A stretch of DNA of 12,671 bases from Gemmataceae bacterium (GTDB lineage Bacteria; Planctomycetota; Planctomycetia; Gemmatales; Gemmataceae): positions 1-12,671 of the forward strand of contig CANLGS010000039.1 of NCBI GenBank assembly GCA_947490035.1, given 5' to 3'. Shown piece by piece: positions 3,774 to 12,671 of the stretch (position 1 is its first letter; each line of letters begins with the position of its first letter). The translations under genes were made by a program, and so were the position numbers. The notes beneath the pieces are model-generated. The model worked only from the letters and a program-made list of their open reading frames with translations, was not told where the DNA came from and searched no databases.

Positions 3774-3823
3774 GCCGTTCTCGGCTGATGATTCTGCCCG
3801 CAGTCGGTGGTACACTGCTTACC

Positions 3824-4625
3824 ATGTCGTCCTCGTCCGCCCACCCCACAGTCGCGCACCAGCCGTCAGGCCCCGGCCACAGCACCACCGTGGCCGCGGT
3901 CAGCACGCCCGCCGTCGAACTCCTCCGCGACACCACCACCGACCCGGCGCTGCTCCGCTTCCTGGGCACACCGCCGACGGCACGTTCTACTACGTGATGG
4001 AGTACCTGCCCGGCCCGAACCTGGACCAGCTCGTAACGAAGCACGGCCCGCTCCCGCCGGGGCGCGCGGTTCACTTATTGCGCCAGATTTGCGGCGCGTT
4101 GCGCGAGGCGCATGCGGCCGGTTTGATTCACCGCGACGTGAAGCCGAACAACGTGATGGTGTGCGAGCGCGGTGGCGTGCCGGACGTGCGAAACTGCTCG
4201 ACTTCGGCTTGGTGCAGGCCGACGGCGGCATGACCGACAAACTGACGGTGAGCGGTTCGATCACGGGCACGCCGGCGTACATGAGCCGCGAGCAGGCCGC
4301 CGGGCTACACACCGACGCGCGGAGCGACGTGTACTCGTTGGGCGCGACCGCGTACTTCCTGCTGGTCGGTCGGCCGCCGTTCGTGCGCGAGACGATAATG
4401 CTGACGCTGACCGCCCACATCACCGACGCGCCCCCGCCGCTGGGCGCCGGCGTGCCGGAGGATGTCGCGTCGGTGGTGCTGCGGTGTCTGGCGAAGGAAC
4501 CGGCCGACCGGTTCGCGGACGTGCAACAGCTCGAAGCGGCGCTGGCCGCGTGCGGCTGCGCCGCGGAGTGGGGTGAGTGCGACGCCGCCGCGTGGTGGGC
4601 CGCCTACCGCGACGCCATCGCGTGA
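3824..4625 (+). pseudogene. Decayed Ser/Thr protein kinase lacking the N-lobe
   Basis: Remains of a Hanks-type Ser/Thr kinase spread over three frames. An N-terminal piece starts at ATG 3824 (MSSSSAHPTV...) and ends at a stop at 3995-3997. The kinase core resumes in the next frame from about 3961 (HTADGTFYYVMEYLPG, then the catalytic loop HRDVKPNN). At about 4188 a further shift is needed to reach AKLLDFGLV, which fits loss of one G (GTGGCG becoming GTGCG). From there the C-lobe is clean: GTPAYMSREQA, SDVYSLGATAYFLL, the CLAKEPADRF region, and an ending resembling planctomycete kinases. Between 3774 and about 3960 no frame contains a glycine-rich loop or a VAIK-type lysine, and about 57 codons is too short for an N-lobe. 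So part of the gene has been deleted as well as frameshifted. It follows hemA by 50 bp. The 3' limit is the TGA at 4623-4625. Sequencing error could explain one shift but not the missing lobe. Confidence 0.8.
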
Positions 4626-4639
4626 GGCCGCAGCGCCAC

Positions 4640-5371
4640 TCACCGCTTCTCGTTCCAGTCGCGGTTCGCGTACTTCTCGGTGCGAATCGCCGGGATGTGT
4701 TCCAGCTCTTCCGCGGTCCACGCGCCCGGTGTTAGTGTCCAGCCGGTGTCCGTCGCGAACGCCTGCGTCAGCACTTCCGCCAGCGCCGCGGGTGCGAACT
4801 CCGGCGCGCCGGGCGCGTCGCAAATCCCCGCGAGCGACGGCACGAACGCGCTTCGGCGCAGCAGGATGCTCCCGTGCTGCAGCAGCGCGCCGCGCATCTT
4901 TCGCTGCGCGCTGCCGGCCACTTTCGACCCGCCGATGAGCAGGTCACCGGGCGTCTGGTGCAGGAAGCACACCACCGGCCCCAGCTTCTGCTCTTCGCCG
5001 CAGATCACCGCGCGCGACTCTACTCCGCGTTCCGCCAGCACCCGCCGCACGATGTGGTGCGCGCGGCAGATCCAGTGTTCGCGCGACACCCACTCCGCGC
5101 CCGGCGGCAGCGCGAGCGAGTAGGTCAGCTCGTGGTGATGCACGATCGCCGCGCCGCCGGTCGAGCGGCGGACCCACGGGAGCCGCGCCAGGTCCGCGTC
5201 GCGGTCGGCCGCGGGTTGGAAGTAGCCGAGCGACAGCGTCGGCTCGGTCCACGTGTAGAAGCGCAGTGACGCGACGCCCTTGACGGCGGACTCCAGCACG
5301 GCTTCGTCAGCGGACATGTTCGTCGCGCCATCGGCACCGGCGAACGGCAGCAAGCGGATGGTTTGGCTCAT
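4640..5371 (-). CDS. Lipoate-protein ligase / octanoyltransferase family protein (LplA/LipM-like)
   Basis: A 243-residue member of the biotin/lipoyl ligase superfamily (PF03099), which attaches lipoate or octanoate to lysines of lipoyl domains such as GcvH and 2-oxoacid dehydrogenase E2 proteins. Marks in order are NMSADEAVL at 18-26, LSLGYFQP at 46-53, RRSTGGAAIVHHHELTYSL at 68-86, VVCFLHQTPGDLL at 133-145, and GGSKVAGSAQRK at 147-158 with the conserved lysine K150, then LLQHGSILL at 163-171. The protein is shorter than classical LplA (about 335) and lacks its C-terminal domain. That, together with the CF motif (C135), leans towards octanoyltransferase LipM-like function, which uses a cysteine acyl intermediate. 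A free-lipoate ligase remains possible. Its link to the nearby glycine cleavage genes is functional, because GcvH needs lipoate. It converges with the kinase remnant, 14 bp apart. Confidence 0.87.
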   Translation of the reverse strand: MSQTIRLLPFAGADGATNMSADEAVLESAVKGVASLRFYTWTEPTLSLGYFQPAADRDADLARLPWVRRSTGGAAIVHHHELTYSLALPPGAEWVSREHWICRAHHIVRRVLAERGVESRAVICGEEQKLGPVVCFLHQTPGDLLIGGSKVAGSAQRKMRGALLQHGSILLRRSAFVPSLAGICDAPGAPEFAPAALAEVLTQAFATDTGWTLTPGAWTAEELEHIPAIRTEKYANRDWNEKR

Positions 5372-5456: not shown

Positions 5457-6134
5457 ATGTCCGTTACCGTCACGATCGCCGAGAACGCGCCCGTCACCAT
5501 CCCCGCCCGCGCCACCGCGAGCCTCGCGTCGTTCCGCGAGTGGTCTGGCGACAACGAATTCCCAGAGAAGACCCGCGTCGATTACTACCAAGGCGAGGTG
5601 TGGCTCGACATGAGCAAGGAACAACTCTTCACCCACGGCTCGCTGAAAACCGAAATCGCGGCCGTTCTGCAAACGCTAACCAAACAAAATAAGTTGGGGC
5701 GTTACTGGTGCAACGGCGTGTTGGTCACGAACGTTATAGCGGAACTGTCCGGTAACCCGGACGGCACGTTCATCTCACACGAGTCGTTCACCACCAAGAA
5801 AGTAACGCTGACCGAGGGAGCCGAAGGGGGATACGTCGAGATCGTCGGGACAGTTGACATGGTTCTGGAAGTCGTGAGCGACAGTTCCGAAAAGAAAGAC
5901 AACCAGACGCTGTTCGAGGCGTACTACGAGGCCGGTATCGCGGAATACTGGCTGGTGGACGCGCGCGGAACGGAGATCGAGTTCCACGTCTACAAGCGCG
6001 GCGCGAAGAAGTACGCCGTCACCAAGAAGCCGCCGGGCGGGTGGACGAAATCGGCCGCGTTCGGCAAGTCGTTCCGACTGGTCCGCGGTAAGGACGCGAC
6101 CGGCAACCCGGGGTTTACGCTCGAAGTGAAGTAA
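5457..6134 (+). CDS. Uma2 family protein, divergent second copy
   Basis: A 225-residue Uma2-family protein (PF05685), only distantly similar to the one at 261-920. Visible marks are YQGEVWLDMS at 44-53, corresponding to the usual GE-x-x-x-M block, H60, PDGTF at 101-105 replacing the common PD-hydrophobic segment, VDMVLEVVSDSSEKKD at 133-148 with the acidic residue E138, K146/K147, Y156 or Y157, and EYWLVD at 163-168. The fold is restriction-endonuclease-like, but substrate and role are unknown. The ATG at 5457 has a GGGAG ribosome-binding site with a 5-nt spacer. An open frame continues upstream but would run into the divergent lipoyl-transfer gene. The local GC content is lower than in the haem and glycine cleavage genes (29 of 60 bases at 5641-5700), which may reflect a different origin. 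It converges with the PARG-like gene, 49 bp apart, with no clear terminator between them. Confidence 0.87.
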   Translation: MSVTVTIAENAPVTIPARATASLASFREWSGDNEFPEKTRVDYYQGEVWLDMSKEQLFTHGSLKTEIAAVLQTLTKQNKLGRYWCNGVLVTNVIAELSGNPDGTFISHESFTTKKVTLTEGAEGGYVEIVGTVDMVLEVVSDSSEKKDNQTLFEAYYEAGIAEYWLVDARGTEIEFHVYKRGAKKYAVTKKPPGGWTKSAAFGKSFRLVRGKDATGNPGFTLEVK

Positions 6135-6183: not shown

Positions 6184-6996
6184 TCAAAAGCCGAACCGCG
6201 CCTCGAACGGGCCGATGAACCGCTTCTCGTCGGACGAGTCCAGCACCGCGAACACGACCTTCGCGAAGCACCCGGCGAACTTGCCGCGGAGCGCCTTCGC
6301 GAACAACTCCGCGATCATCTCCGGTTCGTTCTTGAACACGCCGCAGCCCCACGCGCCGAGTACGACCGCGTCGTGCCCGTGACCGGCCATGAGCGCCAGC
6401 ACCTTCTCGACGCGCTCGCGCATCTCGTCGCGCACCGACTGCCGCTCGCCGTCGCGGATCGCGCCGACGTTCACCGCGGGCGACGTGACGAACGCGCACA
6501 GGTACGGCGCGTCGAGCAACTCGCCCTCGTCGTCCTTGAACACCGGCACGGCGGGCGAGTAGACCGCGTAGTTCGTGTAGAACCCGCCGCTGAGGTGCGC
6601 ATGGTCGCGGTACATCGCATTGCCGTTGATGCATGCGTACAACCCGGACGCGCGGCACAGCGATTCTTCTTGCGCCCGCGCACCGCCGAGGAACCCGCCG
6701 CCGGGATGCCGCGCGCTCGCGAAGTTCAGCGCGACCGGGTTGAACCGGTCCGTGACCAACTTCCGCGCCGCTTCGAGCGTGGTGTCGTTCACCGCCTCGA
6801 ACGCGGTGGGTGTTCCCGAAAGCACGAACCGCGGTAGCGACTCGTCCGGCGGATACGTGAGCGTGCTGTCCCGCGCCGCTTCGACGAGGTGGCGGATGTG
6901 GACCGTTTCGTCTTTGCGGTTCGTGTACCGCCCGGCGGAAACGATCGCGACCGTGTCGTGCGCGATCGAGGCGGCCCGGCTTCGTTTAGGGTACAT
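6184..6996 (-). CDS. TIGR02452 family protein, bacterial PARG-like macrodomain hydrolase
   Basis: A 270-residue protein of the TIGR02452/microbial PARG type, a macrodomain that removes ADP-ribose polymers or ADP-ribose from targets. The diagnostic signature is present: HPGGG (97-101), seven residues, then QEE (109-111), with N91 and the following ESLCRASGLY. E110 and E111 are the expected catalytic pair. Further family marks are AVYSPAVPVFKDDEG at 144-158, TSPAVN at 171-176, and GAWGCGVFKNEP at 214-225. I place the start at the ATG at 6996, preceded by GGAG with a 6-nt spacer. A GTG at 7026 in the same frame would add ten residues but lacks such a site. It is the last gene of the long minus-strand run, 48 bp after the MOSC gene, so cotranscription is possible. 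Its physiological target cannot be read from the sequence. Confidence 0.88.
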   Translation of the reverse strand: MYPKRSRAASIAHDTVAIVSAGRYTNRKDETVHIRHLVEAARDSTLTYPPDESLPRFVLSGTPTAFEAVNDTTLEAARKLVTDRFNPVALNFASARHPGGGFLGGARAQEESLCRASGLYACINGNAMYRDHAHLSGGFYTNYAVYSPAVPVFKDDEGELLDAPYLCAFVTSPAVNVGAIRDGERQSVRDEMRERVEKVLALMAGHGHDAVVLGAWGCGVFKNEPEMIAELFAKALRGKFAGCFAKVVFAVLDSSDEKRFIGPFEARFGF

Positions 6997-7044
6997 GCGT
7001 GGCTCCGTGTGATGTATGACAGACACGGAATGAACCGCGAAGGT

Positions 7045-7503
7045 TCAGGTCGCGGGCGCCAGCACTTCGACCGCGTCGCCAACCGCGACCTCGCCACCGC
7101 CCACGACCGTCGCCAGCACTCCGAGCCGACCCTTCGCATCGTTCCGGGGCTTGCCCTGAATCATCTCGAAACGCGCGCACCCCGTGCGCGGAATGCCCAC
7201 TTTGATTACCGCTTCACCGAGCTTGATATGCGCGCCTTCGACGAGCGCCGCGGGGTCGAGGCCCGCGAGGACGATCTGCTCGCCCATCTCGCCCGGCGCA
7301 ACCCGGAAGCCTTCGCGCCCAAGCTCCGCGAGCGTTTCCGCAAGCATCACATTCAGTTGGCGGTCCGTCGAACCGCCCTTCATGTAGCCTTCGATGCCTT
7401 TGAACTCGACCACCCGCACGCGCGCCGCCGGCACGCGCGAATAGCGGTCTTGCGGGCGCCCGGTCTTCAGCGGCCGGTACACGATGCTCACCACCTGCGC
7501 CAT
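7045..7503 (-). CDS. MOSC domain-containing protein
   Basis: A 152-residue stand-alone MOSC domain (PF03473), the fold found at the C-terminus of molybdenum cofactor sulfurases and in sulfur-carrying or molybdenum-linked proteins such as YiiM and mARC. Visible marks are GIEGYMKGGSTDRQLNVM at 36-53, GEMGEQIVLAGLD at 71-83, and the conserved cysteine C109 in PRTGCARFEMIQGKP. The ending EVAVGDAVEVL is typical of the last strand. It is probably cytoplasmic. The ATG follows a strong AGGAGGG ribosome-binding site that overlaps the end of gcvPB. The gap to gcvPB is only 14 bp, so the two are very likely cotranscribed. There is no obvious biochemical link between a MOSC protein and glycine cleavage, and the substrate is unknown. 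Confidence 0.9.
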   Translation of the reverse strand: MAQVVSIVYRPLKTGRPQDRYSRVPAARVRVVEFKGIEGYMKGGSTDRQLNVMLAETLAELGREGFRVAPGEMGEQIVLAGLDPAALVEGAHIKLGEAVIKVGIPRTGCARFEMIQGKPRNDAKGRLGVLATVVGGGEVAVGDAVEVLAPAT

Positions 7504-7517
7504 CAGTTGCCCTCCTG

Positions 7518-9038
7518 TTACGGCATCCCGGCGGGGTTGCCGGTTGTCACTGTGCGCTCGGTCGGCAGCGCCTCACCCGGCGCCGCGGCCCAGCGCAGCT
7601 TCAGTTCCTTCGCGGCCTTCACCTCGTCCGGGCGGCTCACGATGTGCGTGTGCGGTGCCGTTCGCACAACCTCCGGGTCTTCGGCCTTGATCTTCAGGAG
7701 CGTGTCGGCGAACGCGTCGAGCGTTTCCTTGCTCTCCGTCTCCGTCGGCTCCATCATCAGCGCCTGCGCGACGACCATGGGGAAGGACACGGTGGGCGCG
7801 TGGAAGCCGTAGTCGAGGAGACGCTTGCAGATGTCTATCGCTTTGATCTTGTGCGAGCGCACGAGCGACTGGGCACTCGCGACGAACTCGTGCATACACG
7901 GCCCCGCGTGCGGCACCTCGAAGCCTTCGAGCACGCGCGCCCGCAGGTAGTTCGCGTTCAGCACCGCTTGCTCGCTGACTTCCTTCAAGCCGTCCGGCCC
8001 GAGCGTGCGAATATAGCAGTACCCGCGGAACAGGATGCCGACGTTGCCGAAGAAGCTCCGCACGCGCCCGATCGACTTCGGCATATCGAAGTTGAGTTTA
8101 TACTTCGCGCCATCTTTGACAACAACCGGTGCCGGCAGATAAGGCGCGAGGAAGTCGCGCACCGCGATGGGGCCGGAGCCGGGACCGCCGCCGCCGTGCG
8201 GCCCGGTGAACGTCTTGTGGACGTTGTAGTGCTGCATGTCCGCGCCGAAGTCGCCCGGCCGCGTGATGCCGAGGATCGCGTTCATGTTCGCGCCGTCGAG
8301 ATATACGAGCGCGCCCTTACTATGTAACAAGTCGGTGATGGTGTTAATCTGCGTCTCAAACAATCCCAGCGTGTTGGGGTTGGTAATCATGAACACGGCG
8401 GTGTCATCGCCCAACTTGGCCTTCAAGTCGTTGAGATCAACGAGACCGCTCGCGCCGCTCTTGACGGTGATCGTATCGAACCCCGCGAGTGCCGCACTCG
8501 CGGGGTTCGTGCCGTGCGCGGAGTCCGGCACGAGCACCTTGCGGCGGTGCGTCTCGCCCTTCTCCTTGAAGTACGCCGCCGCGACGAACAGCGCCGTGAG
8601 TTCGCCCTGCGCGCCGGCGGCCGGTTGCAGCGACACCGCCGGCAGCCCGGAAATCTCCGCGAGGTATTGCTGCATCTCGTAGAGCAGTTCGAGCATGCCC
8701 TGCGTTGTGTCGTCGTCCTGAAGCGGGTGCAGGTTGGCGAACCCCGGCAGCGCCGCGAGCCGCTCGTGCCGCTTGGGGTTGTACTTCATGGTACACGACC
8801 CCAACGGGTAGAAGTTGGTGTCGATGCTCATGTTCCGCGCCGACAGATTCGTATAGTGCCGAATGAGGTCGATCTCACCGACCTCCGGCAGCGGCGGCGG
8901 CTTATCCGTAAGGTGCTCGCGCGGAATGAGCGCGTCAAGCGGCTGTAATGAAGGAACATCACAGGCGGGCAGCCGGTGGCACCGCCGCCCGGACTTGGAC
9001 AGCTCAAAGATAACTTCGGTGGATTGCGTGTTGTTCAT
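7518..9038 (-). CDS. gcvPB: Glycine dehydrogenase (decarboxylating) subunit 2
   Basis: Subunit 2 of the two-chain P-protein of the glycine cleavage system. With GcvPA it uses pyridoxal phosphate to decarboxylate glycine and pass the aminomethyl group to lipoyl-GcvH. The 506-residue length is normal for the family. The PLP lysine is K275 in NVHKTFTGPHGGGGPGSGP. Other family blocks are HYTNLSARNMSIDTNFYPLG at 61-80 followed by SCTMKYNP, LQPAAGAQGELT around 138-148, DSAHGTNPASAA at 172-183, and the ending SFPMVVAQALMMEPTETESKETLD. The ATG overlaps the preceding reading frame by 4 bp (ATGA) and has only a weak purine-rich site (GGAAG) upstream, so translation may depend on coupling. Its partner gcvPA lies about 2.5 kb upstream, not adjacent. 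A perfect 15-bp hairpin sits in the coding region at 8477-8509. Confidence 0.96.
   Translation of the reverse strand: MNNTQSTEVIFELSKSGRRCHRLPACDVPSLQPLDALIPREHLTDKPPPLPEVGEIDLIRHYTNLSARNMSIDTNFYPLGSCTMKYNPKRHERLAALPGFANLHPLQDDDTTQGMLELLYEMQQYLAEISGLPAVSLQPAAGAQGELTALFVAAAYFKEKGETHRRKVLVPDSAHGTNPASAALAGFDTITVKSGASGLVDLNDLKAKLGDDTAVFMITNPNTLGLFETQINTITDLLHSKGALVYLDGANMNAILGITRPGDFGADMQHYNVHKTFTGPHGGGGPGSGPIAVRDFLAPYLPAPVVVKDGAKYKLNFDMPKSIGRVRSFFGNVGILFRGYCYIRTLGPDGLKEVSEQAVLNANYLRARVLEGFEVPHAGPCMHEFVASAQSLVRSHKIKAIDICKRLLDYGFHAPTVSFPMVVAQALMMEPTETESKETLDAFADTLLKIKAEDPEVVRTAPHTHIVSRPDEVKAAKELKLRWAAAPGEALPTERTVTTGNPAGMP
8477..8509 (-). repeat. Perfect 15-bp inverted repeat inside gcvPB
   Basis: CGAACCCCGCGAGTG (8477-8491), the triplet CCG, then its exact reverse complement CACTCGCGGGGTTCG (8495-8509). 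In gcvPB mRNA this would form a very stable hairpin with a three-base loop. It encodes conserved family residues (TNPASAALAGF), so the pairing comes from codon choice within a constrained protein. No T-run follows on either strand, so it does not look like a terminator. Confidence 0.85.
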
Positions 9039-9292
9039 ACGTCTTCCATGCGATCAATGCGTGCCAAGTATTCGGTCAAACTGTCAGCGCGTACCTTTGC
9101 CCATCGTTCGGGATCGAACCGCGCCATTTCGCGGTCCAATTCCTCATCGGACCGAGCTTTCCAGAATGAGCCGATGCCGTATGGGTCTCGGTAGTGCAGT
9201 ATCCGCTGTCGCTTCTTACCACGTAGGGGTGGGCGTTCACGAAGGAGGAGACAGTCAAACGCACCAAAGTCTGAACCTGTGAATCCGACCAC
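9035..9292 (-). CDS. C-terminal part of a split SMI1/KNR4-like protein (small ORF before gcvPB)
   Basis: An 85-codon open frame with a GTG start at 9292, ending in a TGA that overlaps the gcvPB ATG. I do not think it is an independent gene. The frame stays open upstream to a TAA at 9350-9352, which is the stop of the TIGR02996/SMI1 gene in exactly the same frame, and the intervening codons (PQNCGFRDSPDERIFTDCTV) read like protein. The GTG has no ribosome-binding site. The segment VGFTGSDFGAFDCLLL, a later RILHYRDPYG, and the ending SLTEYLARIDR fit the second half of an SMI1/KNR4 domain, where glycine-rich strands are followed by a final helix. So this is probably the detached C-terminal half of that protein, made only by read-through or reinitiation, or not at all. 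No nucleotide-level insertion is visible. The family call for this half alone is moderate. Confidence 0.55.
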   Translation of the reverse strand: MVGFTGSDFGAFDCLLLRERPPLRGKKRQRILHYRDPYGIGSFWKARSDEELDREMARFDPERWAKVRADSLTEYLARIDRMEDV

Positions 9293-9349
9293 AGTGCAAT
9301 CTGTGAAAATGCGTTCATCTGGCGAATCCCGGAATCCACAATTTTGTGG

Positions 9350-9865
9350 TTAATACAACTCGTCTGCAAGTCCCTGGACCGTTGGTAGATTGAGGGGGGT
9401 TACTTTATCATTAGACGAACTCCACCCTGTATACATCCCACTTACACCTAACTGAGCGAATCCCATACATTCGTCATCGTAGAACCTGTCCAGAAGCAAG
9501 CCACCATTATAGTTCATCAGGAACGCGACGTACTCGTCTGGGAGGAAGGGAATCGTAGATTCCTGCGCCCGGATATCCTCGATGGTGATGTGAGGACCGG
9601 TAAACTCGAACACCTTGTTCTTGAAGCATGCGCCCAGCGGCGGGCGACTCACGCGATATACCCATACCGCGTCGAGCAACGCTGCCAGTTTGCGAACTTT
9701 CCGCTCCTGCGGCTTCTGCCTACCTTTTTCCCATTGCGCCTCCGCGCGCAAGTATGGGCCACGCGGGTCGCCCCTGTCATCGAGCCAGTCGGCGTAGACC
9801 AGTCGCGGCGTGTCGTCGCCGGGGCTGTCCACGATCACGCGAATGAAGGCTTCGTCTTCGTTCAC
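9350..9865 (-). CDS. TIGR02996 domain protein with truncated SMI1/KNR4-like domain
   Basis: A 171-residue protein. Residues 1-45 (MNEDEAFIRVIVDSPGDDTP, then RLVYADWLDDRGDPRGPYLRAE) are a classic TIGR02996 repeat-companion domain, which is abundant in Gemmata-type planctomycetes and of unknown function. From about 93 the sequence looks like the start of an SMI1/KNR4 domain: ITIEDIRAQE, then FLPDEYVAFLMNYNGG at 107-122. SMI1/KNR4 proteins include immunity proteins against polymorphic toxins, but this does not prove that role here. The protein stops at a TAA after DELY, in the middle of the expected domain, and coding-like sequence continues in the same frame to 9035. The GTG start at 9865 overlaps the stop of DUF4058 copy 2 (GTGA) and has an AAGGGG site 8 nt upstream. 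The frame runs further upstream but only as an overlap of that gene. GC content falls to about 47% over 9301-9540. Confidence 0.8.
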   Translation of the reverse strand: MNEDEAFIRVIVDSPGDDTPRLVYADWLDDRGDPRGPYLRAEAQWEKGRQKPQERKVRKLAALLDAVWVYRVSRPPLGACFKNKVFEFTGPHITIEDIRAQESTIPFLPDEYVAFLMNYNGGLLLDRFYDDECMGFAQLGVSGMYTGWSSSNDKVTPLNLPTVQGLADELY

Positions 9866-9933
9866 GGTAGCAACCCCTTCGCGCGGAGGATGCCTTCGGC
9901 CCACGCCTGCTGTTCCGGCGTCAGCGGCGGGTC
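9856..9933 (-). repeat. Direct repeat, unit 1 (end of DUF4058 copy 2 and start of the TIGR02996 gene)
   Basis: A 78-bp stretch matching 10693-10770 with three mismatches by eye, offset 837 bp. It covers the last codons of the DUF4058 gene (LTPEQQAWAEGILRAKGLLP), its GTGA overlap, and the first codons of the TIGR02996 gene. The third mismatch lies near the far end, where the paralogs begin to diverge. Confidence 0.85.
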
Positions 9934-10665
9934 CGGTTGTTGCTTGGTGTACTTCGCGCGTTTGGCGAAACCGCTTTCGTCGTAGCACCGATCGAACACG
10001 GCTTGCAGATCGATCGTCACCGGCGTTACGCCCGCGTCGAGCGGGATCGGCACTTTCGGCAGCCGTTCGGCCAGTTTGATCGGTGCGACGAAGTAGTGAA
10101 TCGGCGAGCCGGCCACCATCACGCACACGTGGTAGTCGCACTCGGGCGCGACCGCGCGCAGCCGCCCTTCGGGAATAGCCGTCGTGTGCGGGCCGCCGCG
10201 GATCAGATCCAGTTCCACAAGATTCACCCGCGACAGGCGAAACTCGCCCTGCTTCTGTCGGTAGGAAATGCGCCCGTCCTCACCCGCCTTCTTGTTCGTC
10301 GGGCTGACGATCTCGACCGCGGTCACCAGTCGCTCGTCCTCGACGGAGCGAATGGACAGGTACAGTTCCTCGACGGGGTCGCTCACCGCTTCGGTCGCCG
10401 CCGCGAGCAACCCGGCCTGCGCGAGCGTCGCGACAGCCACGGCCGTTCCGCCTCCGGTGTTGTCGTCCGAGCTGAACACGCCGATATCAGGAATGCGACG
10501 CAGTTCAGGATCGACGTAAACGCGGCTGTCGCCCGCGGCGACGTACCCCGCCGGCAGCGCCGCGTTGATTGCTGCCTGAAGGTAGGTAATCAGGCTGTTG
10601 TGGACACTGGGGAACACCGCGGGGCGTTCCAGCCACGGGTCCATTCCGGGAAACGGCGACGGCAT
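9862..10665 (-). CDS. DUF4058 family protein, copy 2
   Basis: A 267-residue DUF4058 protein (PF13267), common in planctomycetes and cyanobacteria and of unknown function. It starts with the family signature MPSPFPGMDPWLE, then has RRIPDIGVF at 57-64, VTAVEIVSPTNKKAGEDGR around 114-132, Y135 and K138, and VNLVELDLIRGGPH. The order PD, then E118, then lysines, together with the phrase EIVSPTNK, resembles Uma2 and suggests a PD-(D/E)XK-like fold. This is inference. No signal peptide is visible. It is a tandem paralog of the next gene upstream, and the last 20 residues are identical in the two copies. The ATG has a strong GGAGGAGGG ribosome-binding site that lies within an 11-codon remnant ORF. 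Its TGA overlaps the GTG of the TIGR02996 gene. Confidence 0.9.
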   Translation of the reverse strand: MPSPFPGMDPWLERPAVFPSVHNSLITYLQAAINAALPAGYVAAGDSRVYVDPELRRIPDIGVFSSDDNTGGGTAVAVATLAQAGLLAAATEAVSDPVEELYLSIRSVEDERLVTAVEIVSPTNKKAGEDGRISYRQKQGEFRLSRVNLVELDLIRGGPHTTAIPEGRLRAVAPECDYHVCVMVAGSPIHYFVAPIKLAERLPKVPIPLDAGVTPVTIDLQAVFDRCYDESGFAKRAKYTKQQPDPPLTPEQQAWAEGILRAKGLLP

Positions 10666-10666
10666 A

Positions 10667-10702
10667 TCAGCCCTCCTCCGCGCGAATAAAAGCTTCGTTC
10701 AC
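10667..10702 (-). pseudogene. 11-codon remnant of a TIGR02996 gene between the DUF4058 copies
   Basis: A GTG that overlaps the stop of DUF4058 copy 1 (GTGA) opens a frame reading MNEAFIRAEEG and closing with TGA one base before the ATG of copy 2. The TIGR02996 gene after copy 2 starts the same way, MNEDEAFIRV, at the same overlap. The short frame is best read as the 5' stub of a second TIGR02996 gene with six bases (two codons) missing, whose remainder was lost. Its end supplies the GGAGGAGGG ribosome-binding site of copy 2, so it may now act as a translated leader. Confidence 0.65.
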
Positions 10703-10770
10703 GGCAGCAACCCCTTCGCGCGGAGGATGCCTTCGGCCCACGCCTGCTGTTCCGGTGTCAGCGGTGGGTC
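10693..10770 (-). repeat. Direct repeat, unit 2 (end of DUF4058 copy 1 and remnant)
   Basis: A partner of 9856-9933, 75 of 78 positions identical by eye. Outside this stretch the two DUF4058 genes are clearly more diverged, so the 3' ends were either duplicated recently or kept alike by gene conversion. Confidence 0.85.
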
Positions 10771-11490
10771 GCACGGCTCGCGGTAGCTGACGAGCGCGTC
10801 ATATTTTCCGCTCGCATAGCAGCGCTCGAGAAGGGGTTGTAGGTTCACGGTGACCGGGGGCACGTCTGGGTCGAGCGGGATCGCGAACGCCGGGAGCGGG
10901 TCGCCGAGTTTGATCGCCGCCGCGTGATACGACGGCACTGCCTCCGCGACCGTCACGCTGATGTGGTAGTCGAACGTGGCGAATGCCTTCCGCAGCCGTC
11001 CGAGCGGCGCCGCGGTGACGTGCGGCCCGCGCCGCAACAGGTCGATTTCCACCAGGTGAACACCGGACAACTCGTACTCGTGCTGCTTCTCCTGGTACGT
11101 CTGACGCCCCTTCTCGCCCGCCTTCTTGTTCGTCAGGCTGATAATCTCGACGGCCGTAACCAGCCGCTTTCCCCTCGGCGACACGATTTCGAGATACGGC
11201 TCTTCGACCGGTTCGGGCGAGAGCCGCTGACCGATCGCGGTCAGCCCGGCGAGCGCAACAACCACCCCACCGTTGCCGTTCGGGTCGCGGTCGCGGCCGA
11301 ACAGCGCCACGTCCGGCTCGCGACGTAGTTCGTCGTCCACCCACACTTTGTTCTTGGTCGTCGCGACGTAGCCCGGCGGGAGCGCGGCGTTGACCGCTTC
11401 CTTGAGCAGAAAGATGAGGCTCTCGTGCAGGTCGGGGAACACTTCTTCCCCCTCCAGCCACGGGTCCATTCCCGGAAACGGTGACGGCAT
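10699..11490 (-). CDS. DUF4058 family protein, copy 1
   Basis: A 263-residue DUF4058 protein (PF13267). Marks are MPSPFPGMDPWLEGEEVFPD at the start, RREPDVALF at 56-64, VTAVEIISLTNKKAGEKGR at 111-129 with E115, Y132 and K135, VHLVEIDLLRRGPHVTA at 144-160, and the end LTPEQQAWAEGILRAKGLLP. The usual S-P-T-N-K reads SLTNK here, so P is replaced by L. It lies only 12 bp after gcvPA, and its ATG has an AGGAGGG ribosome-binding site beginning just past the gcvPA stop, so it is almost certainly cotranscribed with gcvPA. Its stop overlaps a GTG that opens the remnant ORF before copy 2. Function is unknown. The fold resemblance to Uma2 is an inference from motif order. Confidence 0.9.
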   Translation of the reverse strand: MPSPFPGMDPWLEGEEVFPDLHESLIFLLKEAVNAALPPGYVATTKNKVWVDDELRREPDVALFGRDRDPNGNGGVVVALAGLTAIGQRLSPEPVEEPYLEIVSPRGKRLVTAVEIISLTNKKAGEKGRQTYQEKQHEYELSGVHLVEIDLLRRGPHVTAAPLGRLRKAFATFDYHISVTVAEAVPSYHAAAIKLGDPLPAFAIPLDPDVPPVTVNLQPLLERCYASGKYDALVSYREPCDPPLTPEQQAWAEGILRAKGLLP

Positions 11491-11502
11491 CGCACCCTCC
11501 TG

Positions 11503-12671
11503 TTAAACGCTCGCCTTCATCGCCGACACGAAGCCGTCGATCTCGGCTTTCGTGCGCTTCTCCGTGACCGCGACCGTGATGCAGTCCTTCAGCGCCGGAT
11601 ACCACCGGCCGAGCGGCAAGCCGGCGTGGTAACCCTTCGCTCGCAGTTTCGCAAGTAGCACTTCGGCATCGCCCGGAACCTTTAGCGCGAACTCCTTCGC
11701 GAAGGGGGCTTTGAAGCGGAGAGAGACGCCCGCGACCGTGCACAACTGCTCCGCGGCGTAGTGCGCTTTACGCACGCACAGTTCCGCGGTTTCCTTCAAG
11801 CCCTGCGGGCCGACCGCGGTCAGGTACACCGCGGCGCGGAGCGCGAGCAGTCCCTGATTCGTGCAGATGTTGCTCGTCGCCTTTTCGCGCGCGATGTGCT
11901 GCTCGCGCGACGCGAGCGTGAGCACCCACGCGCGCTTGCCATTCCGGTCGGTGGTCTGACCAACGAGCCGGCCGGGCACTTTACGCTGGTACTCGGCGTG
12001 ACACGCGAGGATGCCGAGGTACGGGCCGCCGTACTGGAGCGGCACGCCCAGTCCCTGACCTTCCGCCACCGCGATGTCGGCACCGTGATCGCTCGGCCGC
12101 TTCAACACGCCCACGGAGATGGGATCGAAACTCGCGACGAACAGCGCGCCGACCTTGTGCGCCGCGTCGCCGATGGACTGCATGTCTTCGAGGTGGCCGA
12201 AGAAGTTGGGCGACTGCGCGATCACGCACGCGGTCGCGTCGGTCACCGCGGTCTTCACGTCATCGGGGTTCAGCACACCGTTCGGCGTGGGCAGCGTGCG
12301 CACGCGGCAGTTGAGGTTCGCGGCGTAGGTGAGAAGCGTCTGCCGGTACTCCGGGTGAACGCTCTCCGCGATGAGTATCTCTTGCCGCTTCGTGATGCTG
12401 AGCGCCATCAGCGCCGCTTCGGTCACGCTCGAACCGCCTTCGTAGAGGCTCGCGTTCGCGACCCCCATGCCGGTGAGTTCGCACATCAGCGACTGGTACT
12501 CGAAGACCGCTTGCAGCGTGCCTTGCGAGGCTTCCGCCTGGTAGGGCGTGTACGCGGTGTAGAACTCGCTGCGTCCCGCGATGGCATCGACCACGCTCGG
12601 AATGAAGTGGTCGTACGCGCCGCCGCCGAGGAAGCACACCGCGTCCGACGCGGACTGATTCTTCGCGAGCA
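11503..12671 (-). CDS. gcvPA: Glycine dehydrogenase (decarboxylating) subunit 1, 5' end outside window
   Basis: Subunit 1 of the two-chain glycine cleavage P-protein, partner of GcvPB in PLP-dependent glycine decarboxylation. About 389 of the usual 440-450 residues are visible. The frame is open to the right edge of the window and the start is not seen. A GTG at 12639 is inside the conserved block (NQSASDAVCFLGGGAYDHF) and is not the start. Family marks are FLGGGAYDHFIPSVVDAI, then EFYTAYTPYQAEASQGTLQ, MGVANASLYEGGSS and TEAALMA, SPNFFGHLED, and ASREQHIAREKATSNICTNQ near the C-terminal third. It ends KASV with a TAA. DUF4058 copy 1 follows 12 bp later. The family is usually followed directly by gcvPB, which is not the case here. 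The gcvT and gcvH genes would be expected upstream, outside the window. Confidence 0.96.
   Translation of the reverse strand, partial: LAKNQSASDAVCFLGGGAYDHFIPSVVDAIAGRSEFYTAYTPYQAEASQGTLQAVFEYQSLMCELTGMGVANASLYEGGSSVTEAALMALSITKRQEILIAESVHPEYRQTLLTYAANLNCRVRTLPTPNGVLNPDDVKTAVTDATACVIAQSPNFFGHLEDMQSIGDAAHKVGALFVASFDPISVGVLKRPSDHGADIAVAEGQGLGVPLQYGGPYLGILACHAEYQRKVPGRLVGQTTDRNGKRAWVLTLASREQHIAREKATSNICTNQGLLALRAAVYLTAVGPQGLKETAELCVRKAHYAAEQLCTVAGVSLRFKAPFAKEFALKVPGDAEVLLAKLRAKGYHAGLPLGRWYPALKDCITVAVTEKRTKAEIDGFVSAMKASV

Follow-up and report, generated by a model that had tools for sequence, protein, structure and literature searches.

Why would accessory genes settle between the two halves of a core metabolic enzyme, and what kind of genes are they? 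The question is raised by a 12,671-nucleotide stretch of Gemmataceae DNA (GenBank assembly GCA_947490035.1, contig CANLGS010000039.1; hereafter the window), in which the glycine cleavage genes gcvPA and gcvPB, encoding glycine dehydrogenase subunits 1 and 2, are separated by two DUF4058 genes and one interrupted gene that joins a TIGR02996 domain to a variable SUKH (SMI1/KNR4) part. Our comparison of 93 gcvPB loci indicates that this block is probably a long-established guest cassette of a single Gemmataceae branch, in which an immunity-like SUKH gene has been exchanged or sorted between lineages. The evolutionary part of this reading is well supported; the immunity-like role is suggested by membership in the SUKH superfamily.

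The window is an entire contig (C39) of a metagenome-assembled genome (G000) of 754 contigs and 68% completeness, and gcvPA is consequently incomplete. All genes of the block lie on the minus strand. The flanking genes gcvPA (11503..12669, its 5′ end open at the contig end) and gcvPB (7518..9038) are identified as the GcvPA and GcvPB equivalogs by NF001696 (E 6.3e-166; 552.7 bits against a cut-off of 364) and NF003346 (E 6.4e-210; 697.9 bits against 441), respectively. Between them, DUF4058a (10699..11490) lies 12 bp after gcvPA and is followed, across a 33-bp spacer (10666..10698), by DUF4058b (9862..10665), both being members of PF13267 (E 2.5e-54 and 2.4e-58; 184.8 and 197.9 bits against a gathering score of 25). 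A 4-bp GTGA overlap (9862-9865) joins DUF4058b to the TIGR02996-SUKH gene, whose frame runs from 9865 to 9035, with 276 codons ahead of the final stop, and meets gcvPB in a 4-bp ATGA overlap (9035-9038). An earlier sequence-only reading had described this spacing, which is real in every gap and overlap, and had also noted a ‘split gene’. The gene is indeed interrupted; more precisely, reading of the frame shows one frame broken by a single in-frame TAA (9350..9352) into a 5′ piece (9353..9865), comprising the conserved TIGR02996 domain and the beginning of the variable SUKH part, and a 3′ remainder (9035..9349), within which translation of an open reading frame (ORF; 9035-9292) could resume at a GTG. 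The window allele looks freshly inactivated by this one nonsense codon, or else the codon is a sequencing error. The TIGR02996 domain is clear (E 4.1e-18; 64.9 bits against a cut-off of 29.05), and SMI1/KNR4 (PF09346) matches the 171-aa piece of the window at E 0.0023 and 19 bits, below its gathering score of 25.4. All 17 scanned relatives match the same family at E <= 0.1; scores above 25.4 bits are reached in L033 (26.7), L036 (35.0), L038 (31.7), G051 (38.9) and G021 (68.3), with L085 (24.7) below (L and G denote loci and genomes). The sole match of the SUKH protein to the PDB is 3d5p, a putative Smi1/Knr4 protein, at E 0.025.

The run from gcvPA through the guests to gcvPB can be read as one operon from its layout. 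Two options had been put forward for it, namely that accessory genes entered the operon or that their products act with glycine metabolism, and the first fits better because the genes share a strand, overlap by 4 bp and show no minus-strand terminator-like site between gcvPA and gcvPB in a crude consensus scan, and because gcvPA and gcvPB lie close together outside the guest-bearing branch. What changes is the picture of the entry, which is old and clade-wide and includes a hypervariable member. Minus-strand promoter-like sites, as consensus matches only, comprise a weak one within the SUKH gene and a further two in gcvPB. The window holds no glycine riboswitch or other RNA element at Rfam gathering scores, and no tRNA was found in it.

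The 93 loci consist of the window, 80 loci from the genome collection (the 80 that ranked highest among 247 for similarity to the window gcvPB) and 12 of 18 hand-picked stretches taken from whole genomes, the unused ones being duplicates or containing gcvPA only. Removed before this count were L121 (on the contig of L054), L129 (on the contig of L078), L125-L128 (gcvPA only) and L001-L031 (short duplicates). Guests were detected by tblastn for DUF4058 and SUKH and by profiles for two further guest families, and the 93-row gcvPB tree was built by a quick method. Guests adjoin gcvPB in 33 loci, and all 33 sit on one 41-row Gemmataceae branch (Shimodaira–Hasegawa-like approximate likelihood-ratio test, SH-aLRT, 94). 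Outside this branch the two halves are close, as had been presumed, with gaps of 2-438 bp in all 41 measurable of the 52 rows; where the gap could be measured in guest-bearing loci (28 of them), it is 420-3264 bp. Across the 93 loci, DUF4058 occurs in 26 and SUKH in 19, including 13 that have both; a PD_DExK protein occurs in 4 and a family of 83-aa proteins in 6. On the branch itself, six rows have SUKH without DUF4058, 13 have DUF4058 without SUKH, and eight are empty for the families sought (L048, L050, L053, L054, L072, L095, L105 and L123), although L050 nevertheless has a gap of 751 bp. The order is constant in the mapped loci: DUF4058 follows gcvPA, and SUKH or the 83-aa gene precedes gcvPB. 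Two simpler accounts of the arrangement were discarded. Recurrence in 33 loci rules out a recent insertion particular to the window genome; assembly error, which had been raised as a possible cause, is unlikely for an arrangement recurring in many assemblies and is ruled out by the single-contig genomes among them (G010, G011, G071 and G074), and could still account for the lone TAA.

Within this stable setting, the SUKH alleles turn over. Across relatives of the TIGR02996-SUKH gene, the TIGR02996 part is conserved and the C-part variable; intact-looking copies are roughly 240-320 aa long, and the allele nearest to that of the window, in L085, is an uninterrupted 281 aa. The turnover is sharpest between the close genomes G009 (L035) and G010 (L115), whose flanking DNA is 97-98% identical over ~700 bp on each side. 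Of the two, G009 alone has DUF4058, and their sequences part at the gcvPA stop; the SUKH gene is 93% identical over its first ~118 bp, then identity collapses, to return at the gcvPB start. The gcvPB proteins of the two genomes are 99% identical and the SUKH C-parts 26%, and synonymous divergence (dS) is 0.07 in gcvPA, 0.14 in gcvPB, 0.67 in the SUKH N-part and saturated in the C-part. Distant genomes, in turn, carry recognizably related C-parts (L033/L113 66% identity, L034/L051 55%, L036/L115 54% and L038/L122 45%), and the window and L085 share 41% identity over a region spanning both pieces of the window frame. A C-part tree of 19 loci gives starred support to five groupings (window+L085; L036+L115; L032+L033+L113; L034+L051+L114+L060; L038+L122), and the gcvPB DNA rejects all five in approximately unbiased (AU) tests (p-AU 9.6e-5, 1.6e-59, 0.001, 1.9e-6 and 1.9e-72), the groupings having been named after the SUKH similarity was seen and the third being represented by the pair L033+L113. 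The history of the SUKH alleles is in conflict with that of the gene next door.

In the genomes searched, the alleles lie largely at this one chromosomal address. Three SUKH allele types, used as queries against 19 genomes of the genus, returned 2, 5 and 6 matches at E <= 1e-3, and 13 of 13 adjoin gcvPB, three of them being the queries themselves; the same genomes hold 14-96 TIGR02996 matches each, and SMI1_KNR4 matches number 1-31 per genome in the 11 genomes searched. A profile of the gcv-slot SUKH C-parts (A5) has its best match next to gcvPB in 11 of 11 genomes. Among 95 genomes of the family it gives 22 matches at E <= 3.2e-22, of which 20 adjoin gcvPB, one adjoins a relocated gcvPA (G021) and one is off-site (G051); nine weaker matches, down to 1e-12, are that of the window and eight on other contigs or at far coordinates. 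As the profile was built from gcv-locus proteins, its gcv-site hits are partly circular, and the single-allele queries are the fairer test. Elsewhere, clusters of SMI1_KNR4 matches in G011:C1 (about 4378583-4404426, 5187913-5216137 and 5497680-5505462), several with identical scores, resemble a SUKH array of the poly-immunity type.

The DUF4058 guests have a steadier history. A tree of 61 rows comprises 36 from gcv loci and 25 others, the latter drawn from the loci returned for 12 genomes and not from all matches. On it, the label ‘gcv’ or ‘other’ changes 4 times; shuffled labels need 19.6 changes, and none of 500 shuffles came as low. Most of the non-gcv rows (21 of 25) form one clade of dispersed paralogs (support 99/93), with the gcv-interval copies outside it; the other four are L140 (G051), L085 (actually upstream of gcvPB and mislabelled) and the long-branched L041 and L060. 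Two old lines are apparent, one uniting DUF4058a of the window with L035, L122 and L114, the other uniting DUF4058b with L033, L038 and L039. The gcv-interval DUF4058 genes are under purifying selection: the ratio of nonsynonymous to synonymous substitution rates (dN/dS) is 0.06-0.20 over 13 comparisons (0.12-0.18 for DUF4058a versus L035, L122, L114 and L039; 0.14 for DUF4058b versus its nearest copy, L033, at 86% identity), compared with 0.07-0.27 for gcvPA and 0.01-0.18 for gcvPB. Their 3′ ends are peculiar. DNA identity between DUF4058a and DUF4058b is about 42-78% per 20-codon bin in the body of the gene and 97% and 89% in the final two bins, and L035 versus L113 repeats the pattern (97% and 100%). 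Read from the junction sequences, the 33-bp spacer opens like a TIGR02996 gene (GTG AAC GAA GCT TTT ATT CGC; frame VNEAFIRAEEG, then stop), comparable to the start VNEDEAFIRA of the TIGR02996-SUKH gene at 9865, and reads as the fossil of a lost TIGR02996 unit start. The 4-bp overlap between DUF4058 and SUKH is found in seven of seven printed junctions as well as in G051. All 36 aligned DUF4058 proteins match PF13267, and 17 of them weakly match the Uma2 profile (PF05685, ‘putative restriction endonuclease’) at E <= 0.1, the best being 3.2e-4 and below the cut-off. A role as a Uma2-like PD-(D/E)XK nuclease found little backing in profile comparison: these hits fall below the cut-off, and hhalign comparison with five Uma2 proteins was not significant; sequence comparison with the PDB gave no meaningful match to DUF4058.

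Rearranged genomes show what stays together when the operon comes apart. In G016, G019, G021 and G023, gcvPA is not adjacent to gcvPB. G021 carries gcvT, gcvH, a Uma2 gene, gcvPA, DUF4058 and SUKH on one contig and DUF4058, SUKH, PD_DExK, SUKH and gcvPB on another, so that both separated halves keep guests; in G023 a PD_DExK gene directly follows gcvPA. A phosphofructokinase gene stands ahead of the SUKH-gcvPB block in G019 (L041), and in L038 and L060 that block is preceded by frames whose ends look similar by eye. The single-contig genome G051 goes further. Its GcvP is one 946-aa frame in which both halves can be discerned by eye, the gcvPB-like half being matched at 44%, and a gcv-type DUF4058 gene (2.5e-52) and a TIGR02996-SUKH gene (1.6e-09) lie between a tetratricopeptide-repeat (TPR) gene and an alpha/beta-hydrolase gene, with the overlaps of the window: GTGA between DUF4058 and SUKH, and ATGA between SUKH and the hydrolase gene. 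This copy in an unrelated operon indicates that the DUF4058-SUKH pair can live away from gcv. In G053 the best gcvPB match falls in a 963-aa frame, and a DUF4058 copy occurs elsewhere without an adjoining TIGR02996 gene. The best gcvPB matches of G004, G051, G052 and G053 all fall in long open frames (959-1000 aa), which suggests a fused GcvP, read through in G051 only.

Under the reading that we favour, of a guest cassette with circulating SUKH alleles, the fixed point is the guest site, which adjoins the 3′ end of gcvPA and the 5′ end of gcvPB. Its occupants are one to three DUF4058 genes and then a TIGR02996-SUKH gene, with 4-bp stop-start overlaps that would permit a single transcript; residence in a housekeeping operon may secure their steady expression. 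The SUKH gene retains its TIGR02996 start, while deeply divergent allele types would be replaced or sorted between lineages. Exchange would probably take place when the gcv locus recombines with DNA from outside, the ends falling in gcvPB and in the island formed by the DUF4058 3′ end and the TIGR02996 5′ end, these being the places at which the close genomes recover identity. The SUKH protein itself may be an immunity or counter-conflict protein that binds toxins or phage factors. A bolder version, which we put forward tentatively and hold to be rather doubtful, would make the interval a place set aside for exchanging alleles of an orphan-immunity-like gene, reminiscent of self-recognition loci: the conserved housekeeping genes would provide the homology arms and the transcription, the DUF4058 3′ end and TIGR02996 start would act as the inner crossover, and SUKH alleles that predate the species would pass between species at this single site.

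Several observations weigh against an old cassette with an exchanged immunity-like gene. The SH-aLRT value of the 41-row branch is slightly below the tool’s support mark, and parsimony on the gcvPB tree requires 12 changes for the presence of DUF4058 and 6 for SUKH, so that gain and loss must have been frequent; some gcv DUF4058 rows (L042, L119, the second L116 copy and the first L049 copy) stand closer to the dispersed clade. L060 and L085 have two SUKH genes each, and tandem copies with differential loss could therefore mimic exchange. Fast C-parts may be general among TIGR02996 proteins rather than confined to the gcv slot, as seen in a neighbouring leucine-rich-repeat (LRR)-like TIGR02996 gene, used as a control, for which G009 and G010 share 84% identity and comparison with G012 gives 40% and 37%; another TIGR02996 gene of G010 has best matches of 37-40% in five other genomes and no close counterpart. 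Constraint on the SUKH C-part is thinly shown, with a finite dS in two of 20 comparisons (dN/dS 0.17 and 0.31), and broken copies occur: the window SUKH (TAA), the G012 SUKH (frame change) and the G087 DUF4058 (two frames). No toxin partner was identified for SUKH, the Pfam-scanned neighbours in the window being gcv, DUF4058, MOSC, PARG and Uma2 genes with no known toxin domain, and PADLOC matched neither DUF4058 nor SUKH. Among these neighbours, the window gene lacks the linked toxin that marks an immunity gene of a polymorphic toxin system, and we do not class it as one.

The broken copies, together with frequent loss and a third-position GC that is lower in SUKH than in the gcv genes, could instead mean that the guests are decaying passengers, with an unconstrained SUKH part free to vary and persistence due to chance. 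We think this unlikely: DUF4058 and the two measurable SUKH C-part pairs have low dN/dS, the SUKH core motifs are retained, with all 17 scanned relatives matching SMI1_KNR4, and decay alone leaves the conflict between the allele groups and the gcvPB tree unexplained. It is less probable still that the guests work with glycine cleavage, as regulators of the P-protein or as factors in its assembly, which would explain their long stay and was the second option of the sequence-only reading. A locus-specific DUF4058 lineage in a deep, clade-wide position, conserved nearly as well as gcvPA and gcvPB, speaks for such a partnership. Yet some relatives dispense with DUF4058, SUKH or both (13 DUF4058-only, six SUKH-only and eight empty rows of 41), DUF4058 differs in presence between the close G009 and G010, SUKH is hypervariable whereas its supposed partners are not, and the G051 pair resides in a TPR-hydrolase context, although the split enzyme has been lost there and a former link would also be compatible. 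The cassette is best read as not being a component of glycine cleavage.

The two remaining explanations treat the guests as conflict or mobility genes in their own right. DUF4058 and SUKH could form a toxin-antitoxin or nuclease-immunity pair, in keeping with their overlapping adjacency, their joint presence in G051, the weak Uma2 hits, the PD_DExK protein as another guest and the ties of SUKH to nuclease toxins described in PMC3482391. We judge this to be very unlikely, given that either gene often occurs alone, that the DUF4058 a-line accompanies different SUKH groups, that DUF4058 is conserved whereas toxins of polymorphic systems vary, and that the Uma2 hits do not reach the cut-off and find no counterpart in profile-profile comparison. 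A mobile or selfish element that inserted into the interval, possibly repeatedly, would accord with the dispersed DUF4058 paralogs, the repeated gain and loss on the tree and the second kind of site in G051, but this is the sort of account that we would hardly expect to hold: the gcv DUF4058 copies are a lineage of their own, unmixed with the dispersed copies, and no recombinase or transposase was seen among the Pfam-scanned interval ORFs, a scan that did not take in every ORF of every locus.

The guest cassette with an exchanged SUKH gene has partial parallels in known systems. SUKH proteins are linked with many nuclease toxins, according to PMC3482391; the gcv-slot proteins resemble the immunity proteins treated there in superfamily (all 17 relatives) and in strong sequence diversification, and differ in that they have no linked toxin found, are fused behind a TIGR02996 domain and are fixed in a glycine-cleavage operon. 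PMC12247911 reports toxin protection by orphan SUKH proteins that have diverged, in some cases still at about 30-39% identity. The rAID orphan SUKH genes of Bacteroidales described in the same paper likewise diverge fast from their relatives, but they lie in recombinase-associated arrays, whereas here a housekeeping operon holds one or two such genes. No rAID-type recombinase or immunity array was seen in the scanned ORFs, which did not include every flanking ORF. With other Gemmata TIGR02996 (rpt_mate_G_obs) paralogs, the gcv-slot members share an N-terminal TIGR02996 domain and a variable C-part; they differ in carrying SUKH, the other paralogs inspected looking LRR-like by eye. An open-access literature search turned up no paper that mentions either DUF4058 or TIGR02996, and nothing on the Gemmata glycine cleavage operon, on Uma2 in connection with Planctomycetes or on this gene arrangement; PMC8567305 likewise offered nothing of relevance. 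Variable immunity genes are usually sought next to toxins or recombinases. Long residence of a hypervariable SUKH gene in a core amino-acid operon would, if confirmed, point to a place that genome surveys overlook, and would provide a natural example of a conflict gene being swapped without disturbing the surrounding operon. The analysis also gives a first genomic context for a DUF4058 lineage; were the guests to act on the P-protein instead, they would represent a new glycine-cleavage factor.

Two further guest families share the interval. The PD_DExK guest is a conserved protein of 204-209 aa (PADLOC PD_DExK E 3.1e-46 for the L085 copy), with copies in L039 (8730-9356), L085 (8458-9069), L112 (9937-10563, minus strand), L122 (2384-3007, minus strand) and L127 (7934-8557). 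The 83-aa family, which has no convincing Pfam match, occurs in L044 (9739-9987), L037, L039, L046, L049 and L060, usually immediately before gcvPB.

Downstream of gcvPB, many relatives directly carry a lipoate-protein-ligase-like gene, which in the window lies further along (4640..5371, minus strand; NF053750 E 7.5e-12, below the cut-off). The intervening DNA (6184-7503 and 5457-6134) holds a MOSC-domain gene, separated from gcvPB by 15 bp, a gene of the TIGR02452/PARG type and, on the opposite strand, a Uma2-like gene. In L036 and L040, too, gcvPB is followed by MOSC and PARG genes. In L054/L121, gcvPA, gcvPB, an lplA-like gene and hemA are grouped as in the window, with no guests between gcvPA and gcvPB. 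Near 3807-4625 (plus strand), a protein-kinase gene is seemingly broken, with the frame 3994-4233 covering positions 76-135 of the Pkinase profile and the frame 3807-4625 covering positions 135-253.

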